Below are positions 5,212 through 61,906 of a stretch of 64,000 nt of DNA, piece by piece; the stretch's first letter is position 1, and each line of letters begins with the position of its first letter. A model generated the notes under the pieces. That model did not search any database. It had not been told where the DNA came from and was given only the letters and a program-made list of their open reading frames with translations. A program made the position numbers and the translations under genes. Source of the DNA: Bradyrhizobium sp. CCGB12 (GTDB lineage Bacteria; Pseudomonadota; Alphaproteobacteria; Rhizobiales; Xanthobacteraceae); assembly GCF_024199845.1 (NCBI RefSeq), contig NZ_JANADO010000001.1:5456001-5520000 (forward strand), given 5' to 3'.

Positions 5212-5227
5212 TGGCACGAAGATTGCT
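5212..5227 (+). promoter_or_regulatory. Sigma-54 (-24/-12) promoter, near-perfect
   Basis: The sequence TGGCACGAAGATTGCT matches the RpoN consensus TGGCAC-N5-TTGCT with GG at 5213-5214 and GC at 5225-5226, exactly 10 bases apart. Transcription would start near 5238 and run into the short frame at 5260 and then the dioxygenase at 5606. No perfect NifA site (TGT-N10-ACA) was found upstream. TGT-N9-ACA at 4946-4960 and TGT-N10-GTA at 5064-5079 are imperfect candidates. Confidence 0.8.
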
Positions 5228-10117: not shown

Positions 10118-11166
10118 GCGGATCTCCGGTACTGGAAGTAGAGGTTACCCACGGCGATAGCCGAAATGAGAACATTTCCCACGAGCGTATAAAATGACGG
10201 CACGATGCGAGAATCGAAGTACTGGAACAGAAACGTAATGATAGGTGCCGTGGACAAGACCATGTTGACGGTGAATGGCTCTACGCGGCGAATGCCCTCT
10301 TGCACCAGGAGCAAGGGAACAACGATCGTTGAAAGGGCAATCATGACGATTGCAAGCCAATGCTGTGAGAGTTCTTGTAAGATACTGGAATGATCGCTCA
10401 ATCCCAGCAACAAGAGGATTGCTCCGTAGAAACGATGAGCCAGTACTTGTCGGCTAGATAATCCACGATCAAACAGCAGTTTCACGAGGATACTGGTCAG
10501 CGAAAGCGACAGCCCAGCTACGATTGCCAGGAAGATCCCAAGGGATGATCGTGGGCCCCATTCGATTCCAGCGTTGCCGCTGGCCGCGATCCAGACCATG
10601 TAACTACCGACAGCCGCAATCAGAACGCTCGCGACGACATCTGATTTGGGGAGACGTCCCTGCCCCCTGATCAGTGCATTCAACCATGCTGTTGCAGTGG
10701 GTCCTAATGCCACCATGAACGTGACGACGATAGCGGGCTCGGCATATTTCAGTCCGACAAACAAGCCGATCCAGCTTATCGCGGTGACACAATTGAGCGA
10801 CACAAAGGCAAGACTCGATGACTTCCCCACTCTCACTGCAACGCCTTCGCGGTGAGCCAAGACGTTGAATGTCACGCTTACAATAGCAAAGGATAGCAGG
10901 AGAGTGATCCATACATTTGCTTGCTGGAAATACGCTGCTGCATAGACGTCACCTGCGGCGCTAACGAGAACATAGAGCGCAACAAGGAGCACTCCTGCAG
11001 CGAATTGCCCGCTCGGCCTGTGCAAAGGCTGCAGAACTGCGCGAAACCAGAACCGTGATGTCGCGGACGTTTTAGATGGATCTCGCTCTTTCGATCCTAA
11101 AGGGTCCCTTTTCGATTGGAGTTTCACAAGCGGCCTCTGCCACTTTCTGAGCGGTACGTGACGCAC
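10114..11166 (-). CDS. rtxE: DMT/EamA-type membrane permease of the rhizobitoxine operon (RtxE by position)
   Basis: A protein of 350 residues with a basic N-terminus of about 50 residues followed by about ten hydrophobic segments arranged as two related halves, the pattern of drug/metabolite (EamA) transporters. Segments such as FAAGVLLVALYVLVSAAG, ITLLLSFAIVSVTFNVL and TIVVPLLLVQEG are clear. It probably exports rhizobitoxine or a precursor across the inner membrane. It overlaps the upstream amidotransferase gene by 43 bases and the ATP-grasp gene by 4. The start may lie further in, because the N-terminal basic extension falls inside the overlap. The transport role is inferred from family and position. 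Confidence 0.7.
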   Translation of the reverse strand: MRHVPLRKWQRPLVKLQSKRDPLGSKERDPSKTSATSRFWFRAVLQPLHRPSGQFAAGVLLVALYVLVSAAGDVYAAAYFQQANVWITLLLSFAIVSVTFNVLAHREGVAVRVGKSSSLAFVSLNCVTAISWIGLFVGLKYAEPAIVVTFMVALGPTATAWLNALIRGQGRLPKSDVVASVLIAAVGSYMVWIAASGNAGIEWGPRSSLGIFLAIVAGLSLSLTSILVKLLFDRGLSSRQVLAHRFYGAILLLLGLSDHSSILQELSQHWLAIVMIALSTIVVPLLLVQEGIRRVEPFTVNMVLSTAPIITFLFQYFDSRIVPSFYTLVGNVLISAIAVGNLYFQYRRSA

Positions 11167-11981
11167 GCCGCTCCAAATGCGCTGAAAAGCTGCTTGCTCA
11201 GGGGATCAGTTTCGACGTGCCATTCGGGGTGCCACTGCACCCCAATCTGCAGCGTCGGCCCGCCTGTTACCGAGGCCGCCTCGATCAGACCGTCGGACGC
11301 CCAGGCTTCAGGCTTTAGCGCAGCCGCAAGCCTTTCTATGCCCTGATTATGCAAGGAGTTAACGTGTGCTTCGGCCGCGCCAGCGATAGGAAGGAGAACG
11401 CCGTCCGGACAAAATTTCACGGTGTGCGCTGTATCGTACTGGCGATCCCTCGGCAAACCGGCCTTCTCAGCATGCATTTGTCCGCTTTGCAGCCCCCATT
11501 CGGACAGGGATGGGTAAAGTGTGCCGCCAAAATAGACGTTAAGCTCCTGAAGGCCGCGGCAAATGCCCAGTATCGGCATCCCAAGGGCAACGGCCTTCTC
11601 AATGGCTGCCGCCGACAGTCTGTCACGAGGACGATCTCTCACGCCAGCTTGAATGTCGTGCTGACTTGTCGCCCTCAGCCTGCCCGAAGCGGACGAGGTG
11701 AGGATGACTGGATCAATATTCGATTCATCCCCCGTCAACATCAAACCGTCGAGCCTGTTCATGATCGTCAGATCATTGTCGAGTTCGGCATCCTCAGCAT
11801 CGATTGTCGGCAATATCGCGCAAGCCACGCCCGCATAGCGGACGAGAGCTTGGACGTATTTGCGCCGCAACCAGTCCCGGTGCACGCCATCTGCCAAAAG
11901 ACGGTTTGAGGTTACGCCCACCACGGCTCGTGCTTCTGTCCGTTGCGATATCAAGCCGACCGCTCCTTCGCATCGCGACAC
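11124..11981 (-). CDS. rtxD: Class I glutamine amidotransferase-like hydrolase, PuuD type (RtxD by position)
   Basis: A protein of 285 residues in the gamma-glutamyl hydrolase branch of class I amidotransferases (PuuD). The fold is marked by VGVTSNRLL at the start, the oxyanion region DGLMLTGDESNIDP, the nucleophile elbow LGICRGLQELNVYFGG (Cys about residue 150) and QIGVQWHPEW (His-Glu). PuuD removes a gamma-glutamyl group from an amide. With the PuuA-like ligase in the same operon this suggests that a rhizobitoxine intermediate is gamma-glutamylated and later released. It overlaps the desaturase gene by 31 bases. The symbol is by published gene order. Confidence 0.75.
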   Translation of the reverse strand: MSRCEGAVGLISQRTEARAVVGVTSNRLLADGVHRDWLRRKYVQALVRYAGVACAILPTIDAEDAELDNDLTIMNRLDGLMLTGDESNIDPVILTSSASGRLRATSQHDIQAGVRDRPRDRLSAAAIEKAVALGMPILGICRGLQELNVYFGGTLYPSLSEWGLQSGQMHAEKAGLPRDRQYDTAHTVKFCPDGVLLPIAGAAEAHVNSLHNQGIERLAAALKPEAWASDGLIEAASVTGGPTLQIGVQWHPEWHVETDPLSKQLFSAFGAACVTYRSESGRGRL

Positions 11982-13006
11982 GCCAGAGACTGTTGATACA
12001 AGCGCCGATTTCGGTCCATCAACTGGGCAATGACGCTAGGTTGACCTTGAGGTCCCTTGACGAAGAGCCCTCCCCACGTTGCGGCAACACTTGCGTAGTG
12101 AGGATCCTGCATTCGAATTTTCTGAGCTTTGTGCAAGAGCCAGAAAGGAATACCGGGGGATAGGTGGTGCTCAAGGTGGTATTCGTCCAAATTCTGACCC
12201 AAAATGGCGCGCTCGATAAAATTTCCCTTTCTATTCCGGGTCAGGTAGACATTCTTTGTCTCGGTCTCGCACATTGGTGAGTGCTCGGCGAGCTCGATGA
12301 ACCAGCCGAGAACCTGAAACGTTGTGAGGTAGGGCACGATCCAAAACAGGACGACGATGTGGAGCAGTCCAACGAGATATGCCCCACCGAGTATGAGTAT
12401 CCAGAAGAGATAAAAGCCATATTTGTCGACGAGGATCCCCGACCGGCTCTGGTCCTCGACACTTATCGAGAACCGATTGGTCCATAGGTACTTCAGATAC
12501 ACGACTGTCGCGCCGCCCAATATCGGCTTCCAGATCATGTTGAAAGCGTACTGCTTAGGGGGCAGGACATCGTAAACGCCGCTGGACAGGAAGAATTTCA
12601 AGTCGGGATCCTTCTCCGGATCGCCGAGATATGGGTGATGCAGATATACGTGTGAAATGCGGTAGGCCCAGTGGCGCTGGAACAAGGGATATGCCGCGAA
12701 CAAGATGCCCAGGATGTAGTTCCAGGTCGTATTCTTCGCGAGCGTGCGGTGCGCGGCATCGTGAGCGATCGTCGTCAATCCGCGCTGGTAGGCCCCAATC
12801 AAGAGAACTGCGATTGGATAGAGCCAATAGGAGACATGGACCGTCGTAAGGACGCAAGCTGCGATCACAGCGTAGTCTTTCACGATGTAAACGGCCCCCG
12901 TGATGTTATCAGGTCTCAGCGCGGAGAGCTGCTGGTTGATCTCGCGATCAAATTGAACCGGCTCAAAACGCGACGACCTCAGTTTCCAAGCATCTGCCTG
13001 TTTCAT
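11951..13006 (-). CDS. rtxC: Dihydrorhizobitoxine desaturase (RtxC)
   Basis: A membrane di-iron desaturase of 351 residues that introduces the double bond converting dihydrorhizobitoxine to rhizobitoxine. The three histidine boxes of fatty-acid-desaturase-like enzymes are visible: HDAAHRTL (about residue 85), HVYLHHPY (about 120) and EYHLEHHLS (about 275). Hydrophobic segments lie between them (VIAACVLTTVHVSYWLYPIAVLLI and others). Its position directly after rtxA, with a 32-base gap and a good AGGAAGGGG before the ATG, matches the B. elkanii operon. A true lipid desaturase is the alternative, but the context makes RtxC much more likely. Confidence 0.9.
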   Translation of the reverse strand: MKQADAWKLRSSRFEPVQFDREINQQLSALRPDNITGAVYIVKDYAVIAACVLTTVHVSYWLYPIAVLLIGAYQRGLTTIAHDAAHRTLAKNTTWNYILGILFAAYPLFQRHWAYRISHVYLHHPYLGDPEKDPDLKFFLSSGVYDVLPPKQYAFNMIWKPILGGATVVYLKYLWTNRFSISVEDQSRSGILVDKYGFYLFWILILGGAYLVGLLHIVVLFWIVPYLTTFQVLGWFIELAEHSPMCETETKNVYLTRNRKGNFIERAILGQNLDEYHLEHHLSPGIPFWLLHKAQKIRMQDPHYASVAATWGGLFVKGPQGQPSVIAQLMDRNRRLYQQSLACRDAKERSA

Positions 13007-13038
13007 GAGAACCCCTTCCTGGATCGGCTTTCAGGTTG

Positions 13039-15537
13039 TCAGATTGCGGAAAGCGCCTTTTCCAAGTCCTTGATGATGTCGGTAATATCTTCGATGCCGA
13101 CGCAAAGCCGGATGGAGCCGCCGAATATGCCGGCAGCCTCGCGCTTTTCCCGCGGGACAGTGGTGTGGGTCGTAGAGACAGGATGGGTTACTAGCGTGCG
13201 GGCATCCCCCACATTCGATACGTGATACATCAAGCTGACGTTCTGGATGAACTTGCGGCCGGCTTGCTCGTTCTCCACCTCAAACATGATCATCGCTCCA
13301 TGCCCGTACCCGCTATCGAGCGTCTGATCGATGATTTCCCGGTCAGCTCCTTCAAACAAGCTCGGGTAGTAGACCCGACGCACTTTTGGATGTTCATTCA
13401 GAAAGTTGGCTACAATTCTGGCGTTCTCGCAGTGCTCCTTCATGCGAAGATGCAGGGTTTCCAATCCTTGAATGAGCTGGAAGCTTGCAAATGGCGAAAT
13501 GGCCGCGCCAGTATCGCGCAACCAAGTCATGCGCGCCTTGAGAAGAAACTCGCTCTTTCCGAGGTCATCGACCTCCACCAACGCATTGCGCCAGATGATT
13601 CCGCCGTGCGCATCGTCCGGACCGTTGAACAGCGGAAAGCGAGACCTTCCCCGATAGTCGAACTCACAATTGTCGACGATCAGTCCGCCGAGCGTCGTCC
13701 CATGACCGCAAATGTACTTCGTGGCAGAGTACGTCGTAATCGCAGCGCCGAGAGCTGACGGCCGGCATACCAGGGGGGTTGTCGTATTGTCCACGACCAG
13801 GGGGACGCCGTGCCTTCTGCCGATCTCCGCTAGCTGTCGTACAGGAAGCGGAATCAGACAGGGATTCGAGATCACCTCCCCGAACAGACATATTGTCCGA
13901 TCGTCAATGGCACGTTCGAAGGTCTCGGGGTCTCGAGGGTCGGCCGTCCTTACGCTGATCCCAAGACGCTTCAAGGTGTTGTGGAGCAGATTCCATGTAT
14001 TTCCGTATAGATACGGAGAAGCGACGACGTTATCTCCCACCTCACCGCTTGATAAGTTTACGATCGCGAGAAACGTCGCCGCTTGGCCCGATGCAACAGC
14101 CAGCGAGTCGCTTCCCATGTCGACGGCGGCATACCTTTTTTCCAGTGCGCGGGTCGTCGGATTGATGATCCTGGTATAGGTGAAACCATCAGCCTTTACG
14201 TTGTAGACGTCAGCAATATGGTTCAAATCGCCATCGAGCTCATAGGCCGTGCTCTGATAGATCGGCACTGCCACAGCTTTCGTCGCCGGATCACGGCGGT
14301 ATCCTGCGTGGAGAGCAGCAGTTTCGGTTGAATATGGAAGCTGCGCGATGGCTGCCGTTGGGCCCGAGATCTCTGCGCTGCTGTCGCGAGTCTCCTGGGC
14401 TGACGCTTGCCCCACAGACCTAGGCCGACCGGACCGGAAGTAAGTGCGAAAGGCACAGCCCAACCGCTCGATCCAATCGTATCGAATCTCGCCAATACAG
14501 CCGATCCTAAAACTGCGGGTAGGAAGGTGCAGCTTAGAGTAGATGTAGAGATTATGGGCTGCCAGATGGCGGTATAGCCCATCAAACGCCACCTGGTCAG
14601 AGATTCCAGCTGGAGCGGTGAACGCCACGCAAACCGGCGACTGCAGGTGCTCCGCAAGCAATGGGGGCACCACCCCTTCCAGCTCTCGGATGATGCTGTC
14701 CTTTATCTTCTCATACCTGCTGCGCCTGGCATCAGTGCCTTCGATGCTCAGGATCTCCAATGCCTTTGTAACTGCCTGAACGATGTGTGTTGGAGGGGTT
14801 GATCGCCATTCACCTGTGCGTTCAAGCGACCGCCATTGATCTCTGACGTCGAGAACAAACGATCGTGGCTCTTGGAGAGCATTCTCAAGGAGCTCGCGGG
14901 AGGCAATGACAAAAGCCAATCCCGGTGGACCTTCGATGCACTTGTTGCTCGACGTAACAATGACGTCTGGTCCGCCACGACTCAGATCGATGTTGACGCC
15001 GCCGAAAGAACTCATCGCGTCAACGATAGTCTTCACGCCACGTCGCCTAGTCACTTCCATGATCGGCTCGAGCGGATTCACAATTCCGGTCGTCGTCTCG
15101 CAATGGACGACGCATACGTGCGTGATACCTGACTCTCGGCTCAAGCGCTCGGCGATTTCCTCAGGGTCCAAGGGATCGGTGGCTCGCTTGATAAGCTTCA
15201 CCGCCTCGACGCCCCATAGCCGAAGAATTTTGAGAATGCGCTCTCCATAAATGCCGTTTATGCAAACGAGCGGCCGATCGGCCCGGGTGAGGAAGGAAGA
15301 GAGAGCGGCCTCCATTCCAAAGGAGCCGCCCCCCTGGATAGGAACGACCGAATAGCCTTCCGCATTGCCCGACACATTGAGCATAAGCCGCCTCATGCGC
15401 GCGGTCACTTCCTTGAACTCGCAATCGCGCGATGCAAGGTCGAGCTGCATCTCGGCCTTCACTGCCGGTGATAACGACATTGGGCCAGGCGTCAGCAAAG
15501 AACGTTCTCTCGTCACACCATCCCCTTTATGTTGCAC
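13039..15537 (-). CDS. rtxA: Rhizobitoxine biosynthesis bifunctional PLP enzyme (RtxA)
   Basis: A two-domain fusion of 832 residues. Residues 1-375 form a class V aminotransferase: LLTPGPMSLSPAV at the start and a PLP-lysine region TSSNKCIEGPPGL. The amino-transfer half is reported to make serinol from dihydroxyacetone phosphate. Residues 400-832 form a Cys/Met-metabolism enzyme like O-acetylhomoserine sulfhydrylase: HAGYRRDPATKAV and the PLP lysine in TYSATKYICGHGTT. This half would join serinol to the homoserine skeleton. Such a fusion is the hallmark of RtxA in B. elkanii. Both PLP sites look intact. A GTG start at 15516 behind AGGGG is an alternative. The long leader holds a MerR-type promoter at 15976-16006. 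Confidence 0.93.
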   Translation of the reverse strand: MQHKGDGVTRERSLLTPGPMSLSPAVKAEMQLDLASRDCEFKEVTARMRRLMLNVSGNAEGYSVVPIQGGGSFGMEAALSSFLTRADRPLVCINGIYGERILKILRLWGVEAVKLIKRATDPLDPEEIAERLSRESGITHVCVVHCETTTGIVNPLEPIMEVTRRRGVKTIVDAMSSFGGVNIDLSRGGPDVIVTSSNKCIEGPPGLAFVIASRELLENALQEPRSFVLDVRDQWRSLERTGEWRSTPPTHIVQAVTKALEILSIEGTDARRSRYEKIKDSIIRELEGVVPPLLAEHLQSPVCVAFTAPAGISDQVAFDGLYRHLAAHNLYIYSKLHLPTRSFRIGCIGEIRYDWIERLGCAFRTYFRSGRPRSVGQASAQETRDSSAEISGPTAAIAQLPYSTETAALHAGYRRDPATKAVAVPIYQSTAYELDGDLNHIADVYNVKADGFTYTRIINPTTRALEKRYAAVDMGSDSLAVASGQAATFLAIVNLSSGEVGDNVVASPYLYGNTWNLLHNTLKRLGISVRTADPRDPETFERAIDDRTICLFGEVISNPCLIPLPVRQLAEIGRRHGVPLVVDNTTTPLVCRPSALGAAITTYSATKYICGHGTTLGGLIVDNCEFDYRGRSRFPLFNGPDDAHGGIIWRNALVEVDDLGKSEFLLKARMTWLRDTGAAISPFASFQLIQGLETLHLRMKEHCENARIVANFLNEHPKVRRVYYPSLFEGADREIIDQTLDSGYGHGAMIMFEVENEQAGRKFIQNVSLMYHVSNVGDARTLVTHPVSTTHTTVPREKREAAGIFGGSIRLCVGIEDITDIIKDLEKALSAI

Positions 15538-37219: not shown

Positions 37220-37392
37220 TCCGAGGTTCTCTGGGTCTCGCTTGATCCGGAGCTAAGAGGGAAGCCGGTGTGATGCCGGCGCTGCCCCCGCAACTGTAAG
37301 CGGCGAGCCGCTGTCCAATATTGTCACTGAGGCCGGTTGGCTTCGGGAAGGCCGGACAGCAGCGATGATCCGCGAGCCAGGAGACCTGCCCC
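37220..37392 (+). promoter_or_regulatory. Cobalamin (AdoCbl) riboswitch upstream of metE
   Basis: The core is unmistakable: GGGAAGCCGGTGTGATGCCGG near 37259, then GCTGCCCCCGCAACTGTAAGC, and the closing B12 box GAGCCAGGAGACCTGCC at 37374-37390. Downstream, CCACGGG...CCCGGTGG can pair and may be part of the expression platform. Such elements shut off B12-independent methionine synthase when cobalamin is plentiful. It lies about 120 bases before the metE start, on the same strand. Confidence 0.93.
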
Positions 37393-37510
37393 GGCAACGA
37401 TTTCGTCCACGGGCGGGGTGTCCCGGTGGTGCGTCAAGCAGTTGCCACTGCGGCGGCCTGTACCTGCGCGCATCCACCTTCGCCTCGCCTCCAAACATGG
37501 GGTTGAAGCG

Positions 37511-39835
37511 ATGTCCAACATTTCAGTTCGCGTTGCAACGCTGGGTATGCCGCGCATCGGTCCGCGCCGCGAACTCAAATTCGCGGTTGAGAGCTACTGG
37601 GCCGGTAAGTCAAGCGAAGCGCAGCTCTTGGAGGCTGCGGCCGGACTTCGTCTCGCCAACTGGGCCCGGCAAAAGTCGCTCGGCGCGACCGTCATTCCTT
37701 CGAACGACTTCTCGCTCTATGACCATGTGCTCGATACCAGCGTGATGGTCGGCGCGATTCCCGACGTTTACGGTTGGGTGGCAGGGCCGGTGTCACTCAA
37801 GACCTACTTCGCCATGGCGCGCGGCGCAGAAGAATATGCAGATCGTGGGCATGCCGATCATCGACACGGCGCGGCAGCGCAGGAAATGACAAAGTGGTTC
37901 GACACCAACTACCATTACATGGTCCCGGAACTTCGCAAGGACCAAACCTTCAAGCTTTCCTCGCGTAAGCCGATTGAGGAATACGAGGAGGCAAAGAGCC
38001 TTGGATACCAGACGCGCTCCGTGCTGGTTGGACCCGTCACCTTCCTGAAACTCGGCAAGAGCGCAGATCCAGCGTTCAATCCACTGTTGCTGCTGGACCA
38101 GCTTCTACCGGTCTATGTCGATGTCCTTCGTGAACTAGCCGCGCGAGGTGCGGAATGGGTTCAGCTCGACGAGCCCTGCCTAGTCCTTGACCTAGACGAA
38201 GCATCACGCGGCTCATTGCGGCGGGCATATACCCATTTCGCAAAGCAGGTACCCGGCCTCAAAATCATGCTGGCTACCTATTTCGGGAGCCTCGGCGACA
38301 ATCTCGATACAGCCTTGGCCTTGCCCGTGGCTGGCGTTCACGTCGACCTGGTTCGGGGCTCAGATCAGTTGAGCCTCATCGCCGCCATAGCCCGGAGCGA
38401 TCTCGTTCTCTCACTTGGAGTCATTGATGGGCGAAATGTCTGGCGCTCCAATCTGCCGGACTTGTTCAACAAGCTGGCGCCCACTATCGCAAAGCTGGGT
38501 CATGACCGCGTCGAGATCGCTCCTTCATGTTCGCTGCTTCATGTCCCAGTCGACCTGGAGCTCGAAAGCGATCTCGATTTCGATGTAAAGAGTTGGCTGT
38601 CGTTCTCGGTCCAGAAAATCAAGGAACTGGCCACATTGGGAAGTGCGCTCGCCGGCAATCATGCCCATGTATCTCGCCGCCTTGCGGCTTCCAAACGGGC
38701 GGCCGTGGCTCGCGAGAAGTCGTCTAAGATTCACAACGCCGATGTCACCCGACGTATGACGACGATTGGCCAAACAATGCGTCGCCGCGACAGGCCGTAC
38801 GCTGAGCGTGTCGAGCTTCAGCGCGCGCGATTCGCCTTCCCAGCGTACCCAACGACGACGATTGGATCATTCCCGCAGACTGCGGAGATTCGTCGTGCCC
38901 GTGCGTCCCACGCGCAGGGAACGTTGAGTGACGCGCAGTACGAGCAGTTTCTCAAAGCGGAAACGGCGCGTGCAGTGAGATGGCAGGACGACATAGGGCT
39001 CGATGTGCTCGTGCATGGCGAGTTCGAGCGAAATGACATGGTGCAGTATTTCGGTGAGAAGCTATCGGGCTTCGCCTTCACGAAACACGGCTGGGTTCAG
39101 TCCTATGGCTCACGCTACGTCCGTCCGCCGATTCTGTTTGGAGACGTCTCCCGTCCGAGGCCGATGACGGTCGACTGGTGGCGCTATGCGCAGTCGATGA
39201 CCGAGAAGCCGGTGAAGGCAATGTTAACTGGGCCGGTGACCATTCTGAACTGGTCGTTTGTTCGTGATGATATCCCCCGGAGCAAGGCTTGCGTACAGAT
39301 CGCGCTCGCGATCCGGGACGAGGTGGCCGACCTTCAGAACGCCGGAGCAAAAATCATTCAGATAGACGAGGCGGCGTTGCGTGAAGGATTGCCGCTGCGC
39401 AAGTCACAGTGGAAAAGCTATCTCGATTGGGCCGTAGACAGCTTTCGCATTTGCTCTTCAGTCGTTGCAGACGAAACGCAGATTCATACTCATATGTGTT
39501 ATTCCGAATTTAACGACATCATTGATGCTATCGCGGATATGGATGCCGACGTCATTTCGATCGAGACGTCGCGATCGAAGATGGAACTGCTGGACGCCTT
39601 CAGGAGCTACAAGTACCCAAATCAGATCGGTCCGGGCGTCTATGACATCCATTCGCCGCGCGTTCCTGATACGGCCGAGATGAAACACCTCCTGACGCTC
39701 GCGCGCCAACAGCTCTCCGACTCTCAACTATGGATTAATCCCGATTGCGGCCTGAAAACCCGAAAGTGGGAGGAAGTGCGTCCGGCCTTGGTTAACATGG
39801 TCGCAGCTGCCCGGGAGCTACGAGCGGCAACCTGA
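37511..39835 (+). CDS. metE: Cobalamin-independent methionine synthase MetE
   Basis: An enzyme of 774 residues that transfers the methyl group of 5-methyltetrahydropteroyl-triglutamate to homocysteine. The ATG at 37511 gives MSNISVRVATLGMPRIGPRRELK, the expected N-terminus. The N-terminal domain (1-400) is followed by the catalytic barrel, which has AYPTTTIGSFPQT. Zinc ligands appear as HMCYSEF and PDCGLKTRKW near the end, and the catalytic region includes QIDEAALREGLP. All are intact. It is controlled by the cobalamin riboswitch. It sits about 1.6 kb upstream of fixR. In an island that also carries rhizobitoxine genes, whose product blocks cystathionine beta-lyase, a spare methionine synthase may matter. 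Confidence 0.95.
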   Translation: MSNISVRVATLGMPRIGPRRELKFAVESYWAGKSSEAQLLEAAAGLRLANWARQKSLGATVIPSNDFSLYDHVLDTSVMVGAIPDVYGWVAGPVSLKTYFAMARGAEEYADRGHADHRHGAAAQEMTKWFDTNYHYMVPELRKDQTFKLSSRKPIEEYEEAKSLGYQTRSVLVGPVTFLKLGKSADPAFNPLLLLDQLLPVYVDVLRELAARGAEWVQLDEPCLVLDLDEASRGSLRRAYTHFAKQVPGLKIMLATYFGSLGDNLDTALALPVAGVHVDLVRGSDQLSLIAAIARSDLVLSLGVIDGRNVWRSNLPDLFNKLAPTIAKLGHDRVEIAPSCSLLHVPVDLELESDLDFDVKSWLSFSVQKIKELATLGSALAGNHAHVSRRLAASKRAAVAREKSSKIHNADVTRRMTTIGQTMRRRDRPYAERVELQRARFAFPAYPTTTIGSFPQTAEIRRARASHAQGTLSDAQYEQFLKAETARAVRWQDDIGLDVLVHGEFERNDMVQYFGEKLSGFAFTKHGWVQSYGSRYVRPPILFGDVSRPRPMTVDWWRYAQSMTEKPVKAMLTGPVTILNWSFVRDDIPRSKACVQIALAIRDEVADLQNAGAKIIQIDEAALREGLPLRKSQWKSYLDWAVDSFRICSSVVADETQIHTHMCYSEFNDIIDAIADMDADVISIETSRSKMELLDAFRSYKYPNQIGPGVYDIHSPRVPDTAEMKHLLTLARQQLSDSQLWINPDCGLKTRKWEEVRPALVNMVAAARELRAAT

Positions 39836-44816: not shown

Positions 44817-44832
44817 TGGTACGACACTTGCT
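44817..44832 (+). promoter_or_regulatory. Sigma-54 promoter of fixA
   Basis: TGGTACGACACTTGCT has GG at 44818-44819 and GC at 44830-44831 with 10 bases between. The start would be near 44843, about 28 bases before fixA. The element is 14/16 identical to the promoter at 49666-49681. Confidence 0.88.
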
Positions 44833-46316: not shown

Positions 46317-47240
46317 CTAAGATCTATGTTCTTCGGATAGCGCGAGATGGGGCAACGTCAATTCACCTTTGCCTTCTGCAACAGAAGTGTGGAGCTTTTG
46401 CGCGGCGGCAGTCAGAACCGGGACCCTCAACGCCGTCTCGTTTGCCAATCGCACGCCGCAGTCGATATCCTTCCTGGCATTTGCAATCGATATCGCCAAA
46501 GCATTCCGCTTTTCGCCCAACAAAAAGGCTGCGAAATTTTGAAATATCCCGCTGTTGGTGGCACCGCGACTGACCAAACAGCGTAAGGTTGCAAGGTCAA
46601 CATCAATGGCTTCGGCAAACTGGCAAGCTTCGGCAGCCACTGCCGCAATGCCCATCGTCATGCTATTGTAGACAAGCTTGAGCTTATGGCCTTGCCCAAC
46701 ATCACCCACATGGACAATGTTCTCGCAAAATGCGGTAAGAACACGAGCAGCGGCGGCAAAGGTGTTTTCACTCGACCCAACGATGGCGTTGAGATGTCCT
46801 TCCTCTGCTTGTTCGGGGCTTCGTGTTACGGGAGCATCAACGAAGTGTAAGTCACGCTTTAGAGCCTGCTCTGCCAAAGCAAGTGTTGAAGCGGGATAGG
46901 ATGTTGTGCAGTCAAGTATCAAGCTCTGTCGAGCCAAATGTGCAAATAGCCCATGTTGCCCAAGGCAGACTGCCTCAACCTCGCAGCTTGAGGGCAGGGA
47001 TAAAACGACGGCACTTACATGCCGAGCCAATTCGGAAATTGCGGTGTGCTCGTAGGCACCCATGCCAATCAGGCGTTCCGCGCCAACACGGCTTTTGTTG
47101 GCTTTGATATGCAGCTCGGCGCCATGACGCAAAAGGCTGATTCCCATCCCCGTTCCCATGCGTCCTGCGCCGATCAAGCCAATTCTTTGTCGTGCCGTCC
47201 CTGGCGTTGCTGCTGATAAACGAGTCATACCATACGCCAT
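46317..47240 (-). CDS. Beta-hydroxyacid dehydrogenase (3-hydroxyisobutyrate dehydrogenase family)
   Basis: A protein of 307 residues. The N-terminal Rossmann domain has RIGLIGAGRMGTGMGISLL (dinucleotide loop, about 17-35). ILDCTTSYPAST is the region around the family's substrate motif. GDVGQGHKLKLVYNSMTMG (about 195-213) contains the catalytic Lys. The family oxidises beta-hydroxyacids or reduces the corresponding semialdehydes with NAD(P). It is the third gene of a minus-strand operon; its ATG overlaps the stop of the phosphatase gene (TAATG), so it is translationally coupled. The substrate is unknown and should relate to the PurF-like protein and phosphatase upstream. It appears intact. Confidence 0.82.
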   Translation of the reverse strand: MAYGMTRLSAATPGTARQRIGLIGAGRMGTGMGISLLRHGAELHIKANKSRVGAERLIGMGAYEHTAISELARHVSAVVLSLPSSCEVEAVCLGQHGLFAHLARQSLILDCTTSYPASTLALAEQALKRDLHFVDAPVTRSPEQAEEGHLNAIVGSSENTFAAAARVLTAFCENIVHVGDVGQGHKLKLVYNSMTMGIAAVAAEACQFAEAIDVDLATLRCLVSRGATNSGIFQNFAAFLLGEKRNALAISIANARKDIDCGVRLANETALRVPVLTAAAQKLHTSVAEGKGELTLPHLALSEEHRS

Positions 47241-47920
47241 TATGAGGCTTCAAAAAGACCGCGGTCCTGCAAAATGGTCATTAGTGTATGATGGTCCTCA
47301 ATGAGATAATCTGGTTGCGCCGCTTGCAAACGTGACGCGGACACACATCCGCCGGTAATGGCTATGCTGATCAAGCCAAGATCGCGTGCAATATCCGTTT
47401 CGACAGGCATGTCCCCGACGATGACAGTTGAGCTTGGGTTCAGATTGTATGCCTGCATATATCGACGAAGCCGCTCCCCTTTGCTCATGCTCTTGAATTG
47501 AGTAGCGCGGCTTTCAAATGCCAGCACTTCCGTGATGCAATCATCGATGCCATGTCTTCGTAATTGGTTGCGAAGGGGATCGAGGATATGGTTACTGACG
47601 ATAATGCTAGAAACGCCCTGTTCTCGTGCTGTTTCCAAAATGCATCGCGCGCCACCGCGCATAACGGCCTTGTCCGCCAAGGGTTCATAGGTGTCGTGAA
47701 ACATAGCACAATCATCTCGGTCGACAGTCTCGATATCCCTGTCCGACATTCCTAGGTTACGAAAGAACGCGGAAAGTGGGACGTCGAAGCTGTCGCGAAA
47801 CGTCTTTACATCGATAGCAGCGCGGCCGAGGCGGCCAAGTATGATGTTCGCGGTTTGCAGCAATGCGTCGGAGTCGTCGAGGAGTGTTCCATTCCAATCG
47901 AATACAAGAGCAGGTTTCAT
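47240..47920 (-). CDS. HAD-superfamily phosphatase (phosphoglycolate phosphatase-like)
   Basis: A protein of 226 residues. The start at 47920 (MKPALVFDWNGTLLDD) is favoured by GAGG 6 bases upstream; an ATG at 47935 would overlap the previous gene by 8 bases. Motif I is FDWNGTLLD (nucleophilic Asp, with Asn where the second Asp is usual), motif II is SSIIVSN, motif III includes a Lys near FKSMSKG, and motif IV is VIVGDMPVETD. An all-helical cap lies between. It would remove phosphate from a small sugar- or acid-phosphate. As the middle gene of the operon it may act on the product of the phosphoribosyltransferase-like protein. The specific substrate is unknown. Confidence 0.82.
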   Translation of the reverse strand: MKPALVFDWNGTLLDDSDALLQTANIILGRLGRAAIDVKTFRDSFDVPLSAFFRNLGMSDRDIETVDRDDCAMFHDTYEPLADKAVMRGGARCILETAREQGVSSIIVSNHILDPLRNQLRRHGIDDCITEVLAFESRATQFKSMSKGERLRRYMQAYNLNPSSTVIVGDMPVETDIARDLGLISIAITGGCVSASRLQAAQPDYLIEDHHTLMTILQDRGLFEAS

Positions 47921-47927
47921 CGTGGCC

Positions 47928-49517
47928 TCATTCACTAGACTTCTTTTCGAGCTGATCAGAAATGAACCTGCTCAAGTTTTCGTTTGCGCGCTTTTGCCCA
48001 GCAGGAGTCGGCATCTCGAACGTAAACGCAGATAGATCGATTCCATCATGTCCCTGCGGCAGCAATGTAAGGAAAGTTTGAAAGGGCAGATACGTGACAG
48101 TGGCAGCGTTGATCGATAGAGCTATTTTGCGCTGAATCACCTCTAGGGTTTGCGGCGCGATCCTATGAAAGCGCAAGCTTTCCTGCCGCATTTCGGTTGG
48201 TAGAGTTTTCCAGATGCGCCAGAACGCTAACTCATCTATGGTCTCTATACCCATACCGTAGTAATTCGGCGCAACGATTGGCGGCGAACCGATTGCCCAA
48301 TGCACAGCTTTGGCACCGGCGCCAAGGAGCATTTTCGTGATTGCCCGGCTTGTATCGCCACGAATGAGAGCTTCGTCGGCTACGATGATGTTTCTATTTC
48401 GCACGTTCCTTCCGTTGAGACGGTACTTTTGCGAAATAAGTGATTTGCGCTCACCAAGCACACCGATAAGCGTCCGCTGATGACAGCCTATCGCGACGAC
48501 TTCATCTCGTTCGACCAGGACAGCCTTCTGTTTGAGCAGAGATGAAAATAAGCCGTCAGCATATGGCGCCCCGGTACGCGGCATGGACGCTACGATTATC
48601 GGCGCGGAGCTTGTTTCGACTGGCAATTGCGGCCAGAGAACGCGCCCCAAGTTCAAGCCTATATTACGACGGGTTGTCAGATTAGATTGTCCACGTACCA
48701 TCGTTCTTGCGTTTGCCAAATAGAGCGTTTCGTAGGCGCAAAGCTTGGGACTATGGCGATCGCGGCCCACAAAGCGGTCAAGGCAATCACCCGTTCTGCC
48801 GTTCACATGCTTAATGTGACTTGGTCGGATTTCGTCGATTTGGCCTTTTAGTCCATAAAACGCACTGTTCTCCGAGGCAAAAAGTAGAAAGCCGTCCTCG
48901 GTTTGCATAAATTCCAAAGGTCGCAAACCACTGCGATTGCGGAAGGCGGTGAGATTTCCGAGGCCGTCCAGCATGAGTGCGCTGACAGCACCGTCAACGA
49001 GGCGGTCGATTTCTTGAAAGACTTTCTCGTAGTCAACAGGCAAAGCGTGCTGCCAGTAATCTCTCTGGCAAATGCGATCGGTCAGCCTGAGCAAGACCTC
49101 CGCATCCAACTTGCTGCTGAACGGATGACCTTCGGTGCGCAGCTCTTCCCTTAGTTCATCAGCGTTGACCAACGCCCCGTTCAAACAAACCGCCAAATGG
49201 CGCAATCCGGCCTTGTGATTGTCAAGCGGCTGCAAGTCAGCGTAGCTCTTTACTGTAAAAGATGGCGTACGAACGTGTGCAATCGCTACATTCGCTCTGA
49301 AACGCGCATCCTGCTCATCATGACCAATCCTTGCCAGTTTGCCTGGCGGCCGACATGACTTCGTATATTGAAAGCCTCCTTCATGCATAAACGCGGCAAC
49401 GCCGAACCCGGCCTGCCCTCGGTTCTCTAGCTTCGGCACCATGTGCTTGAGTTGATCATAAGCGGTCTTTTTTGAGCGGCTTGAAGGCAACACAAACGCG
49501 CCTGCAACACCGGACAT
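47928..49517 (-). CDS. PurF-like amidophosphoribosyltransferase homologue with Ser in place of the catalytic Cys
   Basis: A protein of 529 residues with the two domains of amidophosphoribosyltransferase. The N-terminal Ntn-amidotransferase domain (1 to about 240) keeps the fold: AIAHVRTPS, VCLNGALVNADELREEL and KLDAEVLLRL correspond to PurF blocks. But PurF starts Met-Cys-Gly-Ile and this starts Met-Ser-Gly-Val, so the nucleophile is Ser. The C-terminal phosphoribosyltransferase domain (about 260-470) keeps the PRPP loop as IIVADEALIRGDTS, matching VVLVDDSIVRGTTS. GGAGAC precedes the ATG. It is the first gene of the operon. It probably uses free ammonia or another nucleophile, or the Ser works. 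It is not the housekeeping PurF. Confidence 0.85.
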   Translation of the reverse strand: MSGVAGAFVLPSSRSKKTAYDQLKHMVPKLENRGQAGFGVAAFMHEGGFQYTKSCRPPGKLARIGHDEQDARFRANVAIAHVRTPSFTVKSYADLQPLDNHKAGLRHLAVCLNGALVNADELREELRTEGHPFSSKLDAEVLLRLTDRICQRDYWQHALPVDYEKVFQEIDRLVDGAVSALMLDGLGNLTAFRNRSGLRPLEFMQTEDGFLLFASENSAFYGLKGQIDEIRPSHIKHVNGRTGDCLDRFVGRDRHSPKLCAYETLYLANARTMVRGQSNLTTRRNIGLNLGRVLWPQLPVETSSAPIIVASMPRTGAPYADGLFSSLLKQKAVLVERDEVVAIGCHQRTLIGVLGERKSLISQKYRLNGRNVRNRNIIVADEALIRGDTSRAITKMLLGAGAKAVHWAIGSPPIVAPNYYGMGIETIDELAFWRIWKTLPTEMRQESLRFHRIAPQTLEVIQRKIALSINAATVTYLPFQTFLTLLPQGHDGIDLSAFTFEMPTPAGQKRANENLSRFISDQLEKKSSE

Positions 49518-49593
49518 ACTTTGTCTCCTAGACTATGAGTGATGCATGCGTCGGGTCTTATTGATTTCACCGCTGTTTGGTCGCAGACATCCA

Positions 49594-49609
49594 TGTGTCG
49601 AACTAGACA
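49594..49609. promoter_or_regulatory. NifA-type site in the leader of the PurF-like operon
   Basis: TGTGTCGAACTAGACA is a perfect TGT-N10-ACA and also contains the inner palindrome TGTC...GACA. It lies between the sigma-54 promoter and the gene, that is downstream of the start site, which is unusual though enhancers can act from either side. Confidence 0.5.
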
Positions 49610-49665
49610 CCGAGCGGAGGTAAGCCGCTCGGCCGGCGCGAAACGCATCGTCTTGCACCTCAACA

Positions 49666-49681
49666 AGCAAGGCTCGTACCA
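49666..49681 (-). promoter_or_regulatory. Sigma-54 promoter of the PurF-like operon
   Basis: On the minus strand TGGTACGAGCCTTGCT, with GG and GC exactly 10 bases apart. It differs from the fixA promoter at two of 16 positions. The start site would be near 49655, about 140 bases before the PurF-like gene. Confidence 0.78.
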
Positions 49682-55464: not shown

Positions 55465-57540
55465 CTAGACAAAGTCTATATTGACGTTTTCCGGTTCTGC
55501 TGCGGGGTGCCCTGCACTGCCACCATTGGCCGTGCGGGTAGCGCGAGGCGGATGCAGCCGAACACAACGCTGCTCCCACAATCCCAACAATTCGTTCACA
55601 AGAGCTTCGTGTTTGGATCGGTCTAGAGTAATCGTATTGAGAAGCGCTCCAAGCACCGTCTCTCCCTCGATCTGCATCAGAAGATCGAACAAGCCATGCG
55701 AAATACGCACGCCGTCACGGTTCGAATGTCCCCTGCGGATCTCGCATGCAGTCTCCTGACGATCTTCTGCAGTAAAGGCGCGGACTCGATGAAGAGACGC
55801 ATAAGCGGGTAATGAAACGGTGAGCGCGGTCCAGTCGTCCAGCCCTGTAGTCCGCTTTTTGACGAGGAACGGCCCAACCACAAGTCCATCCAGATCGGTC
55901 GTCAAGAATGTGGTGATCGCGTCAGAAACGGAATCCACGATCGGCTCGGCATTGTTGTTGAACGACGTATTGAGCAGCACCGGAATGCCTGTCCGCTCTT
56001 TGAAGGCACTGATCACCTCCCAGTAAACCGGGTTTGATTTGCGCGACACGGTCTGCAGCCGAGCAGTACCATCGACATGCGTGATTGCGCCGAGCACACT
56101 ACGTTTGGAATCGCGCACGCGAACCACGAAATTCATGAATGGGAATTCGCGTTTGCCTTCTGGGAGCTCGAAAAATTCGTTCGCGTCCTCCTCCAGCACT
56201 GACGGCGCGAACGGCCGATAGCCCTCGCGCTTTTTTACCATCGCGTTGATCCGGCCCTTGTTTGAAGCCGGTCGAGGATCAGCAAGAATGCTGCGATTGC
56301 CAAGCGCACGTGGCCCGAACTCGGAACGCCCCTGGACCCAGCCGATCACAGCACCATCAGCCATCCAACCGGCTGCACTCGCTGCTATGTCATCATGACG
56401 TTCAACGTCGAGGTGCCCCGCCCATGCACTCAGCTCGCGCTCTACGGCTCGCTCGCTTCCGATGTCGGGGCCCCAATAGACATCTTGAAGTCGCTCAACT
56501 GGGGCCGGCATGCCCAAATCGCCGGACACCATTAAAGCCGCGCCTAATGCGCAGCCGGCGTCATGCGCAGCAGGTTGGACGAATATGTCTTCGAACAATC
56601 CGGAGTAGAGCAGCTTACCATTCACGGTGCAGTTGTGGGCTACCCCTCCAGCCAGGCACAAACGCTTCATTCCAGTCGTCTTCCGATAGTGCCGCAGGAT
56701 GTGAAACACGATCCGCTCTAGCGCTTCCTGCAAGGAAGCACTCACATCTCGATGCTGCTGTGTGAATGGCATTCCCTTTGTTCGAACCTGGATGCTGCGG
56801 AGCAACGTCGGCCCGATTCGATCTAGGTGAACACGATAGTCACCATTGTCCAAGAGTTCGTAGAACTGTTCGAAGAGCTCGCGAAAGGGTGCAGGGTCTC
56901 CGTAGGGAGCAAGTCCCATAATCTTATACTCGTCGAACAAATCATATCCGAGATATCGGATGGCCTCGAGATAAAATAGCCCTAAAGAGTTACGCTCCGG
57001 GAAACTTGCGAGTTCCGCCATTTCCGTGCCCGACCCTACAGCCAATACCCCCGAGAGAAAATCGCCACCGCCATCGACGGCAAAAATCAGACTTTGCTCG
57101 AAGCCTGACATCGCAAATGCGCTCGCGGCGTGCGCATGATGGTGGTGCACGAACGAGAGCCGAGATTCTTCGACCTCAGCGCCGAACTCCTGCGCCAGCA
57201 ACGTCCTCAGCAACAGTCTGGCATCCAATGGAATGGAGACATTCGGCTGAGACACGAGCAGCCGCTCCAGCATGGTATTGCAATAGCCCTCGGTAGCGTA
57301 GAACGCGATCCGATCGATGTCGTGGAGCTGCACTCCGGCAGTTGCAAGGCAGTATCGGATCGCGCTGCTTGGGAACTTGTTGGAGTGCTTGATCCGATTG
57401 AGGCGTTCCTCCTCGACGGCTGCTATGACGCGCCCGTCCCGGACAAGCACCGCAGCGCCGTCGTGCAGAAACGTCTTAGGCAGCTCCAGTGGATTTTCAT
57501 AGACCTTATCCAGCCCACCGCTCAATCCTAGACACAGCAT
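55465..57540 (-). CDS. nolO: NolO, Nod factor carbamoyltransferase
   Basis: A NodU/CmcH-family O-carbamoyltransferase of 691 residues. The ATG at 57540 gives MLCLGLSGGLDKVYENPLEL, the known NolO start, with GGAGAA just ahead. The N-terminal part has VAAVEEERLNRIKHSNKFP and FVHHHHAHAASAFAMSG (metal-binding His). The middle has LAGGVAHNCTVNGKLLYS and GRSEFGPRALGNRSILADPR, and the tail PVLLNTSFNNNAEPIVDS. It carbamoylates O-3 (or O-4) of the non-reducing residue, using carbamoyl phosphate. In B. diazoefficiens this region was first read as nolMNO; here it is one open gene. It is preceded by a 304-base gap from nodJ. An 11-codon frame with a strong AAGGAG starts near 57591. Confidence 0.9.
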   Translation of the reverse strand: MLCLGLSGGLDKVYENPLELPKTFLHDGAAVLVRDGRVIAAVEEERLNRIKHSNKFPSSAIRYCLATAGVQLHDIDRIAFYATEGYCNTMLERLLVSQPNVSIPLDARLLLRTLLAQEFGAEVEESRLSFVHHHHAHAASAFAMSGFEQSLIFAVDGGGDFLSGVLAVGSGTEMAELASFPERNSLGLFYLEAIRYLGYDLFDEYKIMGLAPYGDPAPFRELFEQFYELLDNGDYRVHLDRIGPTLLRSIQVRTKGMPFTQQHRDVSASLQEALERIVFHILRHYRKTTGMKRLCLAGGVAHNCTVNGKLLYSGLFEDIFVQPAAHDAGCALGAALMVSGDLGMPAPVERLQDVYWGPDIGSERAVERELSAWAGHLDVERHDDIAASAAGWMADGAVIGWVQGRSEFGPRALGNRSILADPRPASNKGRINAMVKKREGYRPFAPSVLEEDANEFFELPEGKREFPFMNFVVRVRDSKRSVLGAITHVDGTARLQTVSRKSNPVYWEVISAFKERTGIPVLLNTSFNNNAEPIVDSVSDAITTFLTTDLDGLVVGPFLVKKRTTGLDDWTALTVSLPAYASLHRVRAFTAEDRQETACEIRRGHSNRDGVRISHGLFDLLMQIEGETVLGALLNTITLDRSKHEALVNELLGLWEQRCVRLHPPRATRTANGGSAGHPAAEPENVNIDFV

Positions 57541-57844
57541 TTCGTTCTCCATTTCGTCATGACAGGACGACCCAAGTGCCATTCGAAGCCATACTTTTGC
57601 TCCTTCCTGAGAGCGCGGGTCGGATATTCAATTGAGATTATTTGAGGTCGGTCTGGATCGATGACATGCGATCAGCTAAAGTGGTGTTGGCACTTAAACG
57701 CGATAACTCGAATTGCGCCGCGCTACTGTTGCCTGACTTGGTCCTGCCGAGGACCGCCTCGAACCGATCGCCGGATGCCCCCTCGTGTCGAGCCGTTACC
57801 TTCGGGTATTGCATCATTTGTCTCTTGTTGTTCGTAATGATGCG
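57541..57844. other. Gap between nodJ and nolO
   Basis: 304 bases. It has an inverted repeat GATCG-N8-CGATC at 57656-57673 and a short frame (about 11 codons) with a good Shine-Dalgarno sequence leading into nolO. No full nod box (ATC-N9-GAT) was found; the repeat has N10 spacing. Confidence 0.4.
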
Positions 57845-59558: not shown

Positions 59559-61268
59559 CTAGGCTGGAAGAAGTTGTTCGGCCGACGATGGCTCCTTTAC
59601 GGCCGTTTTGGTCCAGAGCAGGCCGTCGCACCATACATGGTCAACGCGCGCCCAATGGCACGCTGCAGCGGCATCCGGGAAGAACCCGCGTCCGTGGTGG
59701 TTGGCGCTTGTATTGCACAGCAGTGGAATTCCCGTGATCCGTTCATACTCGACCAGGAGCTCGGCGACCTTGTGCTGAGACGTTCTGGGGATTGTCTGCA
59801 ATCGCGCAGAGCCGTCCAGATGGACAACAGCCGGTATTTTGTCTCGCCATTCCTCCCGTGTCTGGTGATCGAAGAGCATGTAAGGATCGGGCGTTCCAGG
59901 GCTGAAAATGGTCGGCGCTCGATCTTCCAAGCATATCGGTGCCACCGGTCGGAAGTGCTCGCGGCGTTTGATGTCGTTGAGAAGATCCTTCATCTCTGGC
60001 GACGTCGCGGCTGCAAGAATACTCCTGCCGCCCAACGCACGCGGACCGAGCTCAGCCCGTCCGGCCAGAAAGATGACGGGCTTGTTGCTGGCGAGAATCG
60101 CCGCAAGCTCGCGCAAACTGCATGGTTCGGCCCACCATTCTTTCGGGATCTCGCTATCTTGCAGGGGCGGACCGCTGTAGATGGACCACTCAAGCGGAAC
60201 GAATCCTTTCTCCGCCGCGATGGCGGAGCAAGCGGCACCAATCGCGGATCCGCTGTCGTTCGGAAAGGGCGGCACCCATACATGGTCGAACAAACCAGAC
60301 GCGCGTAGTGCGCTGTTCCATTTGATATTGAGGCCGCAACCGCCGGCTACACATAGGTTCCGCGCTCCCGGAAGCGAGGAATGCCGCAGCAGCACCAATG
60401 CGATTTCCTTGACGAGGAGTCGCTCCAGAAACACATGAAACGATGCGAGCACGTCTTCCGGCCGCTTGGAGTTCAGTCGCATCGCGCTCGCGTCAAAGAA
60501 GTCGTGCAAAGCGCGAAGCGACGAGTCCGCATTATAGATATCGGCGCGATAACGGCGAGCCTGCTCCGTATCTGCTGCGAAGCGCCTTTCATAGACCTCC
60601 TGAAACACTGCAACGATGTCTTCATCAACAGATCCGAGCGCGATGTAGGCCATCAGCTTGCCGGCCACGCCCAGGTCCCAACTGGTACGGTTGGCCTGCC
60701 GATAAGGTCCGAAATGGTGGCCGGCGGCAGCATAAGCGTGACCGACCATTGGAAATAAGCATTCAATGAACCGCACGCTTTGGCGTTCAACATAGTACAA
60801 TCGTGGAAAGATGGAGCCGTCCCATACCAGGCATAACGCGGGTTGCCCGGCGTGGGCGAAGGGGCTGGTGCAGTATGCCGATGCGACGTGTCCCGTGACG
60901 TGCGGATAGCTGCGATACGAGAACGCCTTACTGCCGAGAATCAGGCCAAAGCCCTCAACGGCATCGAGAAGACCCTCGGCACGGCGTTCAACATACGGGG
61001 CGCCTTTGAGAACGATAGGTACCATCCCGCTCAGAACCTGGAAATGCGACTCGACCTCTCCGTCCCAACCATCAATAACAAACTGATCAATATCCTGAGG
61101 ATCCAGACCATGCTCCGCCAGCGCGGCGACGATTGCATCGAGATTGTCGATGGCTTGGTACCGGGGATTATTGCCGCGCTTCTCCTGCTCGGTGCAGAAA
61201 ACAAGTCGCCCGTCATCGACAACAGCGATCGAACCGTCATGGGTTAGCTTGATACCGCAGATGCGCAT
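59559..61268 (-). CDS. nodU: NodU, 6-O-carbamoyltransferase
   Basis: An enzyme of 569 residues of the NodU/CmcH family. The ATG at 61268 ([20 protein letters not shown]) is preceded by AAGGAG; a longer reading starts further upstream without one. Motifs include [45 protein letters not shown] and the end [15 protein letters not shown]. It carbamoylates O-6 of the non-reducing end of the Nod factor. With NolO the strain has two carbamoyltransferases. It lies 26 bases downstream of nodS. Confidence 0.95.
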
Positions 61269-61294
61269 ACTTTCTCCTTGCCTATGGCGGAAAT

Positions 61295-61906
61295 TCAATT
61301 TCCTGACGATTGAACCGGTTTTCGGAAGAGAACGAGGAGGCACTCTTCGTCACCCGAGTCCGCCCGGCATTGCATGCGTTCGACCTCGGTCAACGCCTCT
61401 TTCAAGATGTCGATGGCTGTCTCAGCACCGGCAGGGTGTCCCCAGCGCCTGCATGTCTCATCAAGCGCCGATCCGAAAACCAGGCGCCCGTCTGGCGCTA
61501 GCATGTCGATGAGGTTCCGGATCGCCGCACGCAGTTCGGCCATATCCGCGAGGTAGTAGAGAACTTCCGTCACCACGATCAGATCGAACGGCTCCGCGGT
61601 CCAAAACCGTTGAATGTCCGCGACGATCCAGGTGATGTGCGACGCCCCATTCGTCCGTTGGTGGGCCCGATTTATCGCCCGCCGCATGACATCGACCACC
61701 ATGAGGCGTTGGCAATGGGGGGCGAGCCTTTCCGTGAACGTGCCGGCCGCGCATCCCACTTCGAGCGCATTCCGAATGGCCTCTTTGGAACGTGACATTC
61801 GGAGCATCTTGGCGTATCGCTCCTGTTCGAACGGATTACTGTCAAGGCGCCACGGGTCCCCGGCGGCCAACTCGCGCTCTAACAACTCGTACTTCTTGTC
61901 CGGCAT
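61295..61906 (-). CDS. nodS: NodS, Nod factor N-methyltransferase
   Basis: A SAM-dependent methyltransferase of 203 residues that methylates the free amino group of the deacetylated non-reducing end before NodA acts. SAM motif I is NALEVGCAAGTFTERLAPHC (about 45-64). Post-I is LMVVDVMRRAI and motif II is PFDLIVVTEVLYYLADM. The start MPDKKYELLERELAAGDPW matches known NodS. It begins 32 bases after nodC and precedes nodU, the usual nodSU pair. Confidence 0.96.
   Translation of the reverse strand: MPDKKYELLERELAAGDPWRLDSNPFEQERYAKMLRMSRSKEAIRNALEVGCAAGTFTERLAPHCQRLMVVDVMRRAINRAHQRTNGASHITWIVADIQRFWTAEPFDLIVVTEVLYYLADMAELRAAIRNLIDMLAPDGRLVFGSALDETCRRWGHPAGAETAIDILKEALTEVERMQCRADSGDEECLLVLFRKPVQSSGN

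Follow-up and report, generated by a model that had tools for sequence, protein, structure and literature searches.

A probable NifA/sigma-54-linked, nodulation-associated operon encoding a PurF-derived protein, a HAD-superfamily hydrolase and a dehydrogenase in Bradyrhizobium sp. CCGB12

PurF is the glutamine phosphoribosyl pyrophosphate (PRPP) amidotransferase. Beta-lactam synthetase and carbapenam synthetase are class-II amidotransferase relatives that no longer have the Cys and have acquired a new reaction. In nitrogen-fixing symbiosis, bacteroids of Sinorhizobium meliloti make rhizopine (mos), a NifA-linked compound whose enzymes differ from those considered here. We describe a three-gene operon found in a window of 64,000 nucleotides of Bradyrhizobium sp. 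CCGB12 (contig NZ_JANADO010000001.1, positions 5,456,001 to 5,520,000), the whole stretch of DNA that was analysed and to which window coordinates refer. It encodes a PurF-derived protein, a HAD-superfamily hydrolase and an oxidoreductase, and is very probably a NifA/sigma-54-linked operon associated with nodulation. No description of this trio was found in the literature searched, although earlier work may exist. The features of the operon are the following.

49666-49681, minus strand: -24/-12 sigma-54 promoter element TGGTACGAGCCTTGCT, a pattern match, with an expected transcript start near 49655
47928-49517, minus strand: gene 1, PurF-derived protein of 529 aa, with a class-II glutaminase domain without its Cys and a PurF-type phosphoribosyltransferase domain
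47240-47920, minus strand: gene 2, HAD-superfamily hydrolase with motif I DWNGT (DxN) and an ATG start
46317-47240, minus strand: gene 3, NAD(P) oxidoreductase of the beta-hydroxyacid dehydrogenase family, with a DAPVTRSP motif and Lys188 (Pfam PF03446 and PF14833, both over cut-off)

The genes form a tight minus-strand run (46317-49517) behind the strong -24/-12 element. Seven bases (47921-47927) separate the stop codon of the PurF-like gene from the ATG of the HAD gene, for which an in-frame GTG also exists at 47935, and in the sequence TAATG one A is common to the HAD stop codon and the dehydrogenase ATG. These re-derived coordinates agree with a preliminary description of this DNA in gene positions, overlap and gap. 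The operon lies beside nifA (759.6 bits to TIGR01817) and a fixA-like electron-transfer gene; nodI, nodJ and nodU are also present, and a nodA match spans the right edge of the window, which is part of a symbiosis island in a genome of 9.43 Mb.

The promoter carries much of the evidence for the regulatory assignment. TGGTACGAGCCTTGCT (49681-49666, minus strand) differs from the fixA-side element TGGTACGACACTTGCT (44817-44832, plus strand) at two positions, as the preliminary description had noted. The pattern TGGYACGN4TTGCW has 25 matches in the whole genome versus five for a reversed control pattern, and 17 of the 25 fall within 5.44-5.97 Mb, a stretch of about 0.52 Mb that holds the window and nifH and was picked after the list of matches was seen. 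With one mismatch allowed, the window alone has four matches (1.2 expected). Scoring the 400 bases before the PurF-like start in 53 loci (52 fetched plus the window) revealed a site of at least 10/12 on the coding strand in 51 loci and on the opposite strand in one, and the element is constant across loci while the flanking bases diverge. No such element was found in these 400 bases in Mycobacteroides sp. CBMA 271 or before the truncated copy on a Paraburkholderia phymatum plasmid. A chance promoter is ruled out by the genome-wide counts together with the comparison of loci. Elsewhere in the window, the -24/-12 pattern is matched exactly once more at 5212-5227, some 380 bases ahead of a gene for a TauD-family dioxygenase (5606-6526, plus strand).

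Putative NifA sites were sought as TGT-N10-ACA in 30 representatives, obtained by removing near-copies from 51 loci. Between -140 and -60 of the promoter, 25 representatives have the motif with at most one mismatch (4.8 expected) and eight have it exactly (0.3 expected), while two bins further upstream and the intervals -60 to 0 and 16 to 80 do not exceed background. The bin from 80 to 160 bases after the promoter gives a weak signal (3/30 exact, 0.3 expected; 9/30 with at most one mismatch, 4.8 expected). Locus L001 has its only upstream site at -64. Exact motifs also occur between promoter and start codon: two in the window strain, L004 and L007, and one in L001-L003, L014 and L048. The two candidates in the window are:

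49574-49589: TGT-N10-ACA site downstream of the promoter, a candidate relocated NifA site
49594-49609: another TGT-N10-ACA site downstream of the promoter, at a distance of 20 bp from the one above, a candidate

It is possible that in the window's own subclade, which has the motif downstream instead of upstream of the promoter, the enhancer has moved. A profile search of the genome for NifL (TIGR02938) gave only matches below cut-off.

Expression data are available for a relative. According to a nodule RNA-seq study of P. phymatum (PMC8305402), the truncated homologue BPHY_RS40825 (Bphy_7471; locus L049) has a log2 fold change of -5.75 in nifA-mutant bacteroids. For the operon described here this counts as support but does not amount to proof, because the 31 kb of L049 contain neither the HAD gene nor the dehydrogenase, and the promoter finds no match within 400 bases upstream of the truncated copy. 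Insertion-sequence genes lie about 2 kb upstream of that copy. A GHMP kinase and a pyridoxal phosphate (PLP) enzyme stand beside it on the plasmid (L049:15001-22364), and in the table of that study they are strongly NifA-dependent, with log2 fold changes of -8.24 and -6.85 (PMC8305402). A search by term for an amidotransferase had no hit in PMC3538637, PMC5979394 or PMC5748707, and the P. phymatum sigma-54 paper thus gives no support. Taken together, the control by NifA and RpoN in symbiosis that the preliminary description proposed is well supported by the comparison across loci and by the published expression of the truncated relative (PMC8305402); for the window strain itself we infer it from sequence.

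The distribution of the family among genomes also points to symbiosis. Among 265 Bradyrhizobium genomes 93 were matched, of which 68 were counted as having the PurF-like family; the others were set aside, three as short fragments and 22 because their matches resembled canonical PurF only. A strong nodA match is present in every one of the 68 (strong matches alone were used, 139 of 163) and 65 have nifH at E 1e-100, whereas the 24 genomes that carry nifH but have no strong nodA are all without the family. Within these 265 genomes, therefore, the family is restricted to nodulators; the Fisher value for its association with nodA (2e-24) overstates independence, as the genomes are related. Four of the 68 (G025, G062, G191 and G193) look truncated or broken. 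Relatives were found in Mesorhizobium sp. B2-7-2, Rhizobium calliandrae, R. mongolense, Paraburkholderia and Mycobacteroides, and this patchy distribution suggests horizontal transfer. A wider home for the family was not borne out: an even sample of the class gave 2 matches in 385 genomes, both of the window's genus, and a sample of the Mycobacteroides family gave 1 in 201, the centre genome itself. A divergent PurF-like protein (P0066, 46% identity) and a dehydrogenase relative (P0134, 60%) seem to share one metagenome contig of 10439 bases, which hints at further trios.

A survey for the same trio, which the preliminary description had suggested, found a complete trio, every gene intact and the order kept, in 32 of the 53 loci, and genes 1 and 2 both intact and adjacent in 48. 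Once loci with an internal stop or a too-short protein were dropped, 50 copies of gene 1, 51 of the HAD gene and 34 of the dehydrogenase gene remained, window included, and these were used for the residue counts in orthologues. An intact dehydrogenase is absent from 16 of the 50 rows that have an intact gene 1, for which at least four changes are needed on a quick tree. In L025 the intact HAD and dehydrogenase genes stand behind a second, broken copy of gene 1 on the other strand. Over 33 rows, the three proteins agree closely in their pairwise distances (correlations of 0.92-0.97, inflated by shared ancestry). The ratio of nonsynonymous to synonymous substitution rates is 0.15-0.32 in 19 gene pairs tested from seven chosen pairs of loci, indicating purifying selection on all three genes, and about 50% identity is retained across genera. 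The trio recurs with unchanged gene order in Mycobacteroides sp. CBMA 271, among open reading frames that, read by eye, look like unrelated housekeeping genes. Intact orthologues under selection across genomes and genera rule out the case, left open by the preliminary description, of a trio found only in this strain with disabling mutations.

The gene 1 protein has the fold of a whole PurF, with the two domains Ntn and phosphoribosyltransferase (PRTase), and scores 147.3 bits against TIGR01134 (cut-off 350). It is not the housekeeping purF, since a separate canonical PurF (501 bits to TIGR01134) is encoded at 3239918-3241258 of contig C1. In a quick tree the family stands apart from three PurF rows with 100% support in the Shimodaira-Hasegawa-like approximate likelihood ratio test (SH-aLRT), on long branches. 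Residues were compared between 57 family proteins of at least 500 aa and a comparison set of 19 of the 21 distant hits P0075-P0095. The glutaminase Cys is present in none of the 57 (Ser 49, Ala 3, Pro 1, Asp 1, gap 3) versus 18 of the 19 PurF proteins, the other having a gap. Where the oxyanion-hole Asn aligns, 46 of the 57 have Asp, and the window protein has Asn. R348, T349, K364, D381 and T389 are kept in all 57. The preliminary description had considered PRPP-based amination or ribosylation; amination in the ordinary glutamine form is improbable because the glutaminase Cys is gone from the whole clade.

The HAD protein has the fold, the Ser/Thr of motif II, the Lys of motif III and an acidic motif IV, and the D, W, N and T of its motif I are invariant in 21 rows chosen from 119 hits. 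The dephosphorylation step of the earlier proposal needs revision, because the second Asp of the phosphatase motif is missing. In the dehydrogenase of the window both the glycine-rich NAD site and the catalytic Lys of GxGxxxKxxxN are present, the latter invariant in 24 aligned rows, and the DAPVTRSP motif and Asn192 are found in all 34 intact orthologues. The redox step needs revision too, as the gene is missing or broken in several lineages.

From these data we tentatively favour, as somewhat short of probable in its entirety, a pathway in which a glutamine-independent transfer of a phosphoribosyl type is followed by the HAD enzyme and then by the dehydrogenase, driven by NifA and sigma-54. 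The operon would be switched on together with nitrogenase for a symbiosis-specific biosynthesis. Gene 1, a PurF that would have given up glutamine hydrolysis and kept the phosphoribosyltransferase fold, would most likely move a phosphoribosyl-type group from PRPP, the presumed donor, to free ammonia or another small nucleophile. Of the possible acceptors ammonia would be the simplest, since it serves the parent enzyme and bacteroids are rich in it, ammonia being abundant where nitrogenase works. The HAD enzyme would next act on the sugar phosphate, and gene 3, where kept, may add a final, optional redox change. In a bolder form, gene 1 would capture nitrogenase ammonia on activated ribose and, with the DxN HAD enzyme and the dehydrogenase, make an aminosugar or a ribosylated signal specific to the nodule, which would serve bacteroid, plant and kin as a new currency of the rhizopine kind; this extension, including whatever the product might do in the nodule, is speculative and we consider it unlikely.

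Several observations weigh against the favoured pathway and its regulation. The strongest caution is that residues in the active sites of genes 1 and 2 have changed in a fixed way, and another donor or another HAD chemistry could lie behind this. The PRPP loop reads DEALIRGDTS, with D382E, S383A and T388D fixed in 57/57, while the first Asp and the T-S are kept; as these replacements (E for the second acidic D, and D for T) are fixed, a donor other than PRPP may be used. The HAD motif I is DxN, not DxDxT, in 51/51 intact orthologues, which is unusual for a phosphatase. The loss of glutaminase activity is a prediction, because Ser, which might act as a nucleophile, occupies the position of the lost Cys in 49 proteins and the window protein keeps the aligned Arg83, Asn113 and Asp138. 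An intact gene 3 is lacking from 19 of the 53 loci, and Lys188 is found in 32 of the 34 intact orthologues, with Gln in L004 and L007. The family is absent from 71 of the 139 genomes with strong nodA. In the window strain and in L004, L006 and L008, the upstream interval from -140 to -60 contains no TGT-N10-ACA, even with one mismatch. The Mycobacteroides trio is without a sigma-54-like site in the 400 bases before gene 1, and a link to nitrogenase ammonia is for this reason not general.

Other explanations account for part of the same evidence. Gene 1 might instead place the phosphoribose of PRPP on a non-ammonia molecule derived from host or bacteroid, with the HAD enzyme trimming the phosphate and gene 3 tailoring the aglycone or the sugar. 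Such a ribosylation cassette is possible but doubtful, as no acceptor-making gene is widely common beside the operon, the HAD enzyme carries DxN, and a change of nucleophile must be assumed from a PurF parent that uses ammonia. The fixed PRPP-loop substitutions, and the lack of any PRTase match to the window protein in Pfam, are what would be expected if gene 1 were no longer a phosphoribosyltransferase and acted on another sugar phosphate or as a binding or regulatory subunit, leaving catalysis to the HAD enzyme and the dehydrogenase; we regard this as rather unlikely. Least probable is a passenger operon, in which genes long resident in the symbiosis island would sit behind a sigma-54 promoter without truly contributing to symbiosis: the many strong-nodA genomes without the family and the truncated or fragmentary copies fit it, but purifying selection in the tested pairs of all three genes, the identity kept across genera and a promoter that stays constant while its flanks diverge speak against it.

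If the favoured pathway is correct, about half of the examined nodulating Bradyrhizobium and some other rhizobia would spend PRPP on a dedicated product made under a nitrogenase-type switch and not named by the annotations examined. The operon would be a new NifA target, and gene 1 a natural case of a PurF turned into a glutamine-independent enzyme. As it stands, the conserved two- or three-gene set in many nodule-forming bacteria looks like an undescribed small-molecule pathway.

Neighbouring genes were considered as parts of the system and rejected: setting aside clusters of open reading frames that overlap the trio in other frames, no family occurs in more than 21 of the 53 loci. The commonest are a LacI regulator (21 loci) and a coenzyme A (CoA) transferase (20 loci), neither of which is present in the 22 kb around the window trio. 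In L013:4247-6832 and similar loci a divergent LacI-type regulator and a CoA transferase, named by eye and annotation, lie near the operon. A defence system was also rejected, the three proteins having no PADLOC match at E 0.01. Three further features of the window are of separate interest:

7494-15537, minus strand: run of a fused aminotransferase class V / Cys-Met PLP enzyme, a desaturase, a peptidase C26 / class-I amidotransferase, an EamA transporter, one unassigned gene and a glutamine-synthetase domain, a make-up that resembles the rhizobitoxine (rtx) operon
37337-39835, plus strand: complete MetE, B12-independent methionine synthase (1106 bits, over the TIGR01371 cut-off), inside the island stretch
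55465-57582, minus strand: weak NodU relative (171.5 bits, cut-off 1000), perhaps a paralogous carbamoyltransferase, near a full NodU at 59559-61343

Among described systems, the rhizopine (mos) pathway offers a likeness as a NifA-linked synthesis by bacteroids; no partner genes are widely common beside the trio. PurF (TIGR01134) is the nearest relative of gene 1, which differs from it in its score below cut-off, its missing catalytic Cys and its altered PRPP loop. The C-terminal domain of beta-lactam and carbapenam synthetase is AsnB-like and not a PRTase, and differs in this from gene 1. Gene 3 belongs to the same family as sulfolactaldehyde reductase, threonate dehydrogenase and other beta-hydroxyacid dehydrogenases, with which it shares the glycine motif and, in most copies, the Lys; VGRTS of 6sm7 aligns with its VTRSP, and its best score against the NCBIfam equivalogs (threonate, sulfolactaldehyde, tartronate) is 121.4 bits versus a cut-off of 350. 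AlnA, which is not known to be a PurF relative, and AlnB of alnumycin offer a likeness of steps: as proposed here, a phosphoribosyl-type attachment is followed by removal of the phosphate, although the HAD enzyme of the trio has DxN. The same logic is found in the two-step ribosylation by BtrL and BtrP of butirosin.

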